A stretch of DNA of 64,000 nucleotides from positions 511,501 to 575,500 of the forward strand of contig NZ_CP080649.1 in NCBI RefSeq assembly GCF_019603315.1, read 5' to 3'. Origin of the DNA: Ruficoccus sp. ZRK36. Lineage in GTDB: Bacteria > Verrucomicrobiota > Verrucomicrobiia > Opitutales > Cerasicoccaceae. Below the pieces are notes generated by a model that had not been told where the DNA came from, searched no databases, and saw only the letters and a program-made list of their open reading frames with translations. Below are positions 45,003 through 46,081 of the stretch, in pieces (the first letter of the stretch is position 1; each line of letters opens with the position of its first letter). The translations under genes and the position numbers were made by a program.

Positions 45003-45812
45003 ATGCCGAAAGAAGAGGGACAGCATCACGATTTTGCGCGTTTGAATCAAGCGAAAGCGTTCGCGCACGTCCCGATATCAGGGTATCAGGTAGGGGCGGT
45101 GCTTATCACCGCACGGGGGCGAGTTTTCCTCGGTGCGAACCTGGAGTTCCCCGGCCAACCGCTGTCCACGGCCGTCCATGCCGAGCAGGCAGCTCTGGCC
45201 GCCGCCCTCATGGCGGGTGAGCAGAGCTTTGCCCGGCTGGATGTCTCCGCCCCACCCTGCGGGCACTGCCGGCAGTTCCTGAGGGAGTTCGACCGGGGCG
45301 GGCTTGGGATCCGCATTCTGGCCGCCGAAACCGCTCCCGCAACCAGCACGTTGGACCATCTTCTCCCGCAAGCCTTTGGGGGAGAGTACTTTTCGTCCGG
45401 GTTAAATGCATCGGAAGCTCGACTCCCCGAACTGCCCGACAAGGAATGGGCGGCGGCCGCACGCGAAGCCCTCGCCCGCTCTCATGCGCCCTACTCCGGT
45501 AACCGTGCCGTCGCCGTCCTGGCCGGGGGAAAGCGGCTTTTTATAACCGGGGCCAGTCTCGAAAACGCGGCCTTTAACCCCAGCTTGGGCCCCATGCAGT
45601 GCGCACTCTCCCAATGGCGGATGGCCGGACACGATTTTAAGCACATCGAAGCCGCCTGGCTCGTACAGAGCGATACCCGTCGCGTTGACTGGGAGCTCCA
45701 GTCCCGTGAATTACTGGCTAGCGTGGGAGTTCCCGGGACTACGCGCCCCGGACCCGCGGCAGCCGAAGGCTGCACTTTCGATGCTGCGCATCGTGTCCTG
45801 CGATTGCGGTAA
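45003..45812 (+). CDS. cdd: Cytidine deaminase, two-domain type
   Basis: A 269-residue enzyme that deaminates (deoxy)cytidine to uridine. The N-terminal domain holds the zinc site: HAEQAAL (His ligand and catalytic Glu) and PCGHCRQFL (two Cys ligands). The second domain (from about residue 125 on) has SHAPYSGNRAVAVL and ASLENAAFNPSLG but no catalytic Glu, as in E. coli Cdd. The ATG at 45003 gives a normal N-terminus; the ATG at 44937 overlaps the cysI promoter candidate. Oddly, the last 17 codons and the stop lie inside a palindromic composite element (45759-46040), giving a C-terminus (AAEGCTFDAAHRVLRLR) that E. coli Cdd lacks. Confidence 0.9.
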   Translation: MPKEEGQHHDFARLNQAKAFAHVPISGYQVGAVLITARGRVFLGANLEFPGQPLSTAVHAEQAALAAALMAGEQSFARLDVSAPPCGHCRQFLREFDRGGLGIRILAAETAPATSTLDHLLPQAFGGEYFSSGLNASEARLPELPDKEWAAAAREALARSHAPYSGNRAVAVLAGGKRLFITGASLENAAFNPSLGPMQCALSQWRMAGHDFKHIEAAWLVQSDTRRVDWELQSRELLASVGVPGTTRPGPAAAEGCTFDAAHRVLRLR

Positions 45813-46040
45813 GGAACTGCGTTCCTTACCGCAATCGCAGGAGCAGAGCATCAAAACCGAAGTGCCTCATTTTGTTTGTGAGTGCGTCAAAAAGAAATCC
45901 GAGTGATCACAGGTCCAAGACACTTTCTTGGTTGCACCCCAGTTTAGATGTTGGTTCCTCGGCGTTTGTTGAAAGCAGAGCAGCTGCTTTCAACAAACGC
46001 CGACGCGATGCGCAGCATCGAAAGTGCAGGCTCTGCCTGC
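45759..46040. repeat. Composite palindromic element with covarying inverted ends
   Basis: The 35-bp ends (45759-45793 and 46006-46040) are inverted copies. 24 bp are identical and the outer part is a hairpin in each copy: GCAGCC-GAA-GGCTGC on the left, GCAGGC-TCT-GCCTGC on the right. The C-G to G-C change in the stem is matched on both sides, so pairing is kept. Both ends also contain CGATGC-TGC-GCATCG. Inside are a perfect 22-bp-stem hairpin (45796-45842, loop TGC), a small hairpin (45915-45931), the palindrome GTGATCAC (45903-45910) and a perfect 20-bp-stem hairpin (45959-46003, loop AGCAG). No target-site duplication or transposase is visible. Confidence 0.8.
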
Positions 46041-46069
46041 TGCGGGGCTTGGGGGCGCAGAGCCCCCAA
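46036..46069 (-). repeat. 34-bp hairpin module, copy 1, after rlmI
   Basis: On the minus strand TTGGGGGC, loop TCTGC, GCCCCCAA is followed by a linker ending GCAGCAGG. This module begins 12 bp after the rlmI stop. The same 34 bp recur at 50520-50553 on the + strand with two differences, both in the linker. In each case the module sits just downstream of a stop codon in the reading direction of that gene. Confidence 0.8.
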
Positions 46070-46081
46070 CACCAGGCTCGT

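Follow-up and report, generated by a model that had tools for sequence, protein, structure and literature searches.

Between the convergent genes for a cytidine deaminase and a SAM-dependent methyltransferase of Ruficoccus sp. ZRK36 lies a composite palindromic element, which raises the question of what keeps its hairpin arms complementary while their sequences change. Paired changes of this kind are normally taken as proof of selection on RNA structure. From comparisons of the window (the whole stretch of 64000 nucleotides that was analysed) with the rest of this genome and with related genomes, we conclude, with a probability of approximately 55%, that the element is one copy of a genus-restricted, non-autonomous BIME/MITE-like repeat, the arms of which are kept identical by arm-to-arm copying of DNA.

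Structure of the element and its flanking genes

The preliminary description placed the element at positions 45759–46040, but the unit is larger than this, because its inverted arms (45726–45797 and 46002–46073; 72 nt, 76% complementary) run further out and take in one outer hairpin, H1, on each side, so that the full element reaches from approximately 45733 to 46069. It consists of two similar units placed head to head, referred to below as A-units, each of which reads from its end inwards as H1 (G+C-rich), CCCGC, H2 (GCAGSC-NNN-GSCTGC), ACTTTC, H3 (CGATGC-TGC-GCATCG), H4 and a tail. On the forward strand, the left unit comprises H1 (CCGGG-ACTACGCGC-CCCGG, 45733–45751), turned towards the 3′ end of the cytidine deaminase gene lying upstream, H2 (GCAGCC-GAA-GGCTGC, 45759–45773), H3 (45779–45793), which is nearly invariant across the family, the long hairpin H4 (45796–45842) and the conserved tail GCATCAAAAC (45848–45857), for which the family consensus is GCATCAAAACTGGGTCGCCACC. 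A variable linker (45858–45941), containing a repeated inner module at 45903–45931, joins this unit to the right one, which lies on the reverse strand with H4 at 45959–46003, H3 at 46006–46020, H2 (GCAGGC-AGA-GCCTGC) at 46026–46040 and H1 at 46049–46069, with 12 bp between this H1 and the 3′ end of the methyltransferase gene, which runs towards it.

Both H4 hairpins are perfect, with stems of 20–22 bp and loops of 3–5 nt, as had been reported earlier: the left one has a 22 bp stem (45796–45817/45821–45842) and a 3 nt loop, and the right one, the sequence of which is unlike that of the left, a 20 bp stem (45959–45978/45984–46003) and a 5 nt loop. The base-pair swap that the preliminary description saw in the outer hairpins is real, the left and right H2 carrying its C-G and G-C versions respectively. 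The 35 bp ends (45759–45793 and 46006–46040) are indeed inverted copies of one another, although the 24 identical bases quoted for them are the longest unbroken run, the true agreement being 31 of 35. The fold energy lies 15 s.d. below that of dinucleotide shuffles, both as RNA and as DNA. The cytidine deaminase frame enters the element on the forward strand, such that its last part (45732–45812), comprising the final residues and the stop codon (45810–45812), is element-derived; the orthologue in a sister species stops shortly past the same point, with other residues.

A repeat family restricted to the genus

A search with the H2 motif, allowing up to three mismatches, found 69 ends at approximately 62 places in the ZRK36 genome (3.76 Mb), where the reversed pattern gave none, and BLAST of the window element against the same genome returned 100 pieces. 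In the motif search, the three congeners designated G001, G002 and G003 below had between 22 and 64 ends each (the counts being 64, 23 and 22), and 32 other genomes of the order gave one end in total; the element is thus neither unique in its genome nor absent from its relatives. A covariance model, one of the checks proposed in the preliminary description, found many copies in the three members of the genus scanned (ZRK36 included) and borderline single matches only, in three of 49 other genomes of the order. The family is therefore restricted to the genus, all four genomes of which carry copies, with only a stray single elsewhere. A lone H1-H2-H3 copy with H4 missing was observed at locus L171 of another genus of the same taxonomic family (genome G005).

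The composite, dispersed character suggested by the BIME- or MITE-like layout was borne out by these copies. In the usual full form within the genus, an A-unit is joined by a linker to a B-unit (H1-H2 plus another long hairpin), with inverted ends, so that the A...A arrangement of the window copy is unusual; solo A-units also occur, as do mixtures with further repeat modules. H1 stands before nearly all family ends in the ZRK36 genome, which also holds seven close pairs in inverted orientation. The recurring palindromic modules GGGGCAGCGAACGCAGTGAGCGATGGGGC, GGCATTTTCTCCTGAAAATGCC and GTGCGTGACCGCACAGGACA adjoin the element at L014, L022, L035, L053 and other loci of this genome, which suggests that it contains several more repeat families. 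At three places (ZRK36 position 3486199, L116 and L128), H1-CCCGCG is doubled at the outer end, as though an insertion of one copy into another, or recombination between two copies, had taken place there. In one type of B hairpin (L095, L106 and L117), two C.A mismatches side by side are often retained, and these read as G.T on the other strand; this hairpin is strand-asymmetric, in contrast with the perfect A hairpin.

The preliminary description recognized no named family, and nor did we: Rfam gave two sub-threshold chance matches only, with none above the gathering score, and a known RNA family was rejected. A plasmid or phage origin was likewise rejected, since searches of both found no DNA resembling the element.

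Genomic position and turnover

By the orientation of neighbouring genes, as given by codon-bias gene calls, the adjoining gene reads towards the end at 57 of the 69 ends in the ZRK36 genome, with most stop codons within 30 bp. Between convergent genes we found 49 of the 69 ends, and between divergent genes one; for comparison, the gaps of more than 100 bp in a 484 kb sample were convergent in 19 cases, tandem in 99 and divergent in 41 (19/159, or approximately 12%, convergent). The bases preceding H1 are T-rich (42%, compared with 22% at other convergent gene ends).

For 23 sites in the ZRK36 genome, the neighbouring gene was located in the relatives, yielding 56 orthologous gene ends, with flanking DNA identity of approximately 72–94%. 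Only a handful of these carry any copy, and since orthologous sites are mostly without the element, its turnover is fast. The comparison of occupied with empty sites, also proposed earlier, was informative to this extent, but no clean occupied/empty pair was alignable among the 56 ends, the intergenic DNA of the relatives being too diverged. At one locus the composite has opposite orientations in ZRK36 and G001. Its linker is no closer to that G001 copy (similarity of 0.73) than to the copy of a different locus (0.75), which makes inversion in situ no more likely than separate insertions.

Relationship to IS630-type and RAYT-associated elements

In sister species, the A-unit is carried by IS630-type MITEs. 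These are approximately 210 bp long and hold the A-unit as cargo between outer repeats (TAGTGTGCCGTGAGCTAAGTT...), with TA and CTAG ends, and tandem copies share their ends; G002 and G003 both contain them, and G001 has a single one. In G002 there are also IS copies of 1146–1160 bp with such ends and DDE_3 proteins, and no PF13358 match was found in G003 itself, though A-unit MITEs are present there. Two kinds of full-length IS630-family element were seen in G002 (L203:40–1137 and L213:680–1759), with DDE_3 proteins of 365 and 359 amino acids respectively. At approximately nine MITE ends, the TAG of the TIR is the apparent stop codon of the adjoining frame, and this holds on both sides beside the orthologue of the window methyltransferase gene. 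The TIRs of a MITE between two convergent genes at L145 of G002 (1317–1545) apparently supply the TAG stop codons of both genes. At L170:1046–1614, three tandem IS630-type MITEs share end sequences at CTAG; two of these contain an A-unit and the middle one an unrelated interior.

Given this association, all copies might descend from IS630-type MITEs, the transposase having been lost from the ZRK36 genome and the terminal repeats from its copies. TIRs with TA do bracket the A-unit in G002, in G003 and in a single copy of G001, complete IS630 copies bearing TIRs of this type are present, the T-rich stretch before H1 is common to both forms, and the ZRK36 genome itself contains a few apparent IS630-type MITE relics (L081:1796–1816 and L199:1691–1856), one of them beside a family copy. 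We nevertheless regard this descent as unlikely. Most ends in the ZRK36 genome lie 3–30 bp from coding sequence, which leaves no room for a 36 bp TIR at more than 50 sites, and G001 and G002 also possess TIR-less copies, beside which the TIR form has the look of a burst of its own, with more uniform copies. In addition, the stop codons beside the ZRK36 ends are not enriched for TAG, so that insertion at stop codons as for IS630 was rejected. No IS630-type DDE_3 (PF13358) gene was found in this genome. We consider it very unlikely that this is an ordinary REP/REPIN (BIME) family that owed its movement to a RAYT (Y1 HUH) transposase no longer present. Inverted pairs, an extragenic location at 3′ ends near both ORFs and paired variable spacers are all described for REPs and REPINs (PMC3733652, PMC3116915), and a Verrucomicrobia genome rich in GTAG REPs has been reported (PMC3733652). 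However, an alignment of 43 units contained no GTAG/CGTC tag beside the hairpins, the bases there being CCCGC before H2, CTTTC before H3 and (G/A)T before H4, and CTAC was confined to the loop of H1, where some copies have it. The units are also much longer than REPs, and a search for RAYT genes (PF01797), in which controls were detected, found none in ZRK36, G002 or G003 despite the 22–69 copies in each, and four weak matches in G001, none adjoining a copy. A RAYT/Y1 partner in the ZRK36 genome was accordingly rejected.

The ZRK36 form, having neither tag nor gene, is not a RAYT-type REP, and with no duplication and no PF01797 or PF13358 partner found it is not a proven MITE. No target duplication is visible at the window copy, as the preliminary description stated, and across the ZRK36 copies the similarity of left and right flanks is no higher than that of mismatched pairs, the boundaries being uncertain. 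The terminal inverted ends of this form (H1-H2-H3; 72 nt, 76%) are structured repeats and not proven transposase sites. No autonomous version bounded by family ends was found in two inward-facing spans of 4 and 6 kb, which on inspection proved to contain ordinary genes only. For the TIR-less form, with which no RAYT or IS630-type transposase could be matched, it is the distribution of copies that suggests mobility.

Paired changes in the H4 hairpin

The pairing of H4 was assessed in 54 hairpins from ZRK36 and related genomes, obtained by an ungapped extraction, outside which a few degenerate copies fall and which was looser than an earlier one that demanded a paired outer stem. Among their 1131 pairs, 1125 are Watson–Crick, both bases differ from the commonest pair in 265, six are mismatched and none is G.T. 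The unpaired tail beside H4 departs at approximately 12% (well-aligned tails) to 20% (all tails) of its bases. Almost all stems differ from one another (47 distinct out of 49 in the first extraction set). A formal covariation count on 43 sequences gave 219 two-sided cells, compared with 55 in shuffles (0/500) and at most 39 with slid partners, and two-sided variation was present at 18 of the 21 H4 pairs; these counts are of sequences and not of events, and the copies share ancestry. Two-sided changes comprised 78 transversions and 58 transitions, a ratio like that in the unpaired tail (49:37). For ten of 35 distinct stems, the nearest neighbour differs at a single base pair, of which both bases are changed, and neighbouring changes cluster barely more than in the null (0.24 compared with 0.19). 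The H2 swap is likewise found in bulk, with C-G in 24 and G-C in 42 of the 69 ZRK36 copies. Even in the young and more uniform IS630-borne subfamily the stems still differ, and T-A, A.A, T.T and A-T all coexist at one position.

Such covariation is strong, and together with the very stable fold and the location directly after stop codons between convergent genes it is what would be expected if the element were transcribed in the 3′ regions of both genes and selected as RNA, its hairpins ending, protecting or processing the mRNAs as a terminator, 3′-end stabilizer or site of RNase III processing, functions suggested for REP, ERIC and the Neisseria NEMIS elements. Stepwise rescue of an RNA hairpin is expected to run via G.U and to favour transitions. 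The lack of any G.T pair in H4 does not fit this route, and two-sided transversions as frequent as in unpaired sequence argue against it, although this argument is weaker for a transcript of the other strand, on which an A.C mismatch reads as G.U. By inspection, no T-run follows any of the hairpins H1–H4, and the T-rich stretch, which precedes H1, is on the wrong side for an intrinsic terminator; other convergent gaps of the ZRK36 genome are served by ordinary bidirectional terminators. We therefore consider selection on an RNA to be possible but rather unlikely. Selection for a DNA hairpin by some enzyme could give a similar picture to arm-to-arm copying.

According to the reading that we prefer, the element spreads as DNA and persists mainly in the gaps between convergent genes, its ends within approximately 30 bp of stop codons, and the DNA of one H4 arm would serve as the template by which a change is passed to the other, through template switching in an extruded hairpin. 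New stem sequences would then be paired from the outset and would not need stepwise selection on an RNA. From template switching, which is documented, one expects perfect stems and multi-base changes that occur in pairs (PMC8794818), as well as homogenized arms (PMC8604942). The preliminary description argued that structure, and not just sequence, is maintained; structure is indeed kept while sequence changes, but as to the cause, arm-to-arm copying, which we infer for H4, fits at least as well as structural selection, because there are no G.T pairs, the two-sided changes are transversion-rich and one-sided changes are almost lacking. Against copying, long tracts predict runs of neighbouring changes, and such runs are only slightly over the null. 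We think it improbable that a single-stranded hairpin forms at every round of the element's spread or replication and that one H4 arm is then re-synthesized from the other, a route that would allow free diversification with exact complements and movement by neither RAYT nor IS630.

Comparison with known systems

Dozens of sister copies in one genome have stems that are mostly different and nearly perfect, wobble intermediates are lacking, and the mutation spectrum resembles that of unpaired DNA; the family thus provides a natural test of DNA copying as a possible sole source of covariation, and a caution for covariation-based RNA discovery. In addition, one hairpin unit exists within a single genus both as a stand-alone repeat and as the cargo of an IS630 MITE. 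The maintenance of hairpins by template switching, from which perfect stems, paired changes and homogenized arms are predicted (PMC8794818, PMC8604942), has been described in RNA genes and in inverted repeats of yeast coding sequence, but not in an interspersed bacterial repeat family.

Like REPs, BIMEs and REPINs, the present repeats are short, dispersed, extragenic palindromes in inverted pairs beside the 3′ ends of convergent genes, a position in which REPs have been reported (PMC3733652), and they share with REPINs variable paired spacers with compensatory changes (PMC3733652, PMC3116915). They differ in the lack of a GTAG/CGTC tag, in the lack of RAYT in three of the four genomes, and in having a 21 bp perfect stem with a 3 nt loop within a four-hairpin unit of approximately 125 bp plus tail. 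Neisseria NEMIS/Correia, ERIC and YPAL are likewise mobile repeats of small size, and their long stem-loops may have a role in 3′ transcripts (PMC2229807), but the ZRK36 form shows no TIR or TSD, and its arms diversify yet stay perfectly paired. For the sister-species form, with its unit inside MITEs that have IS630-like TIRs and TA sites and with IS630 in the genome, the nearest parallel is the RUP of Streptococcus pneumoniae, a MITE mobilized by IS630-Spn1 (PMC2229807), although in ZRK36 the copies lack TIRs and the genome a transposase, and the unit also exists independently of the MITE. The BOX elements of S. pneumoniae are similarly modular, hairpin-forming and variable in composition, and often provide a gene with both its 3′ end and its stop codon (PMC3049150); their sequence is unrelated, and the present family has no tandem inner modules. 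BOX (PMC3049150) is the nearest parallel for the modular build, and the REPINs (PMC3116915) for the paired variable spacers.
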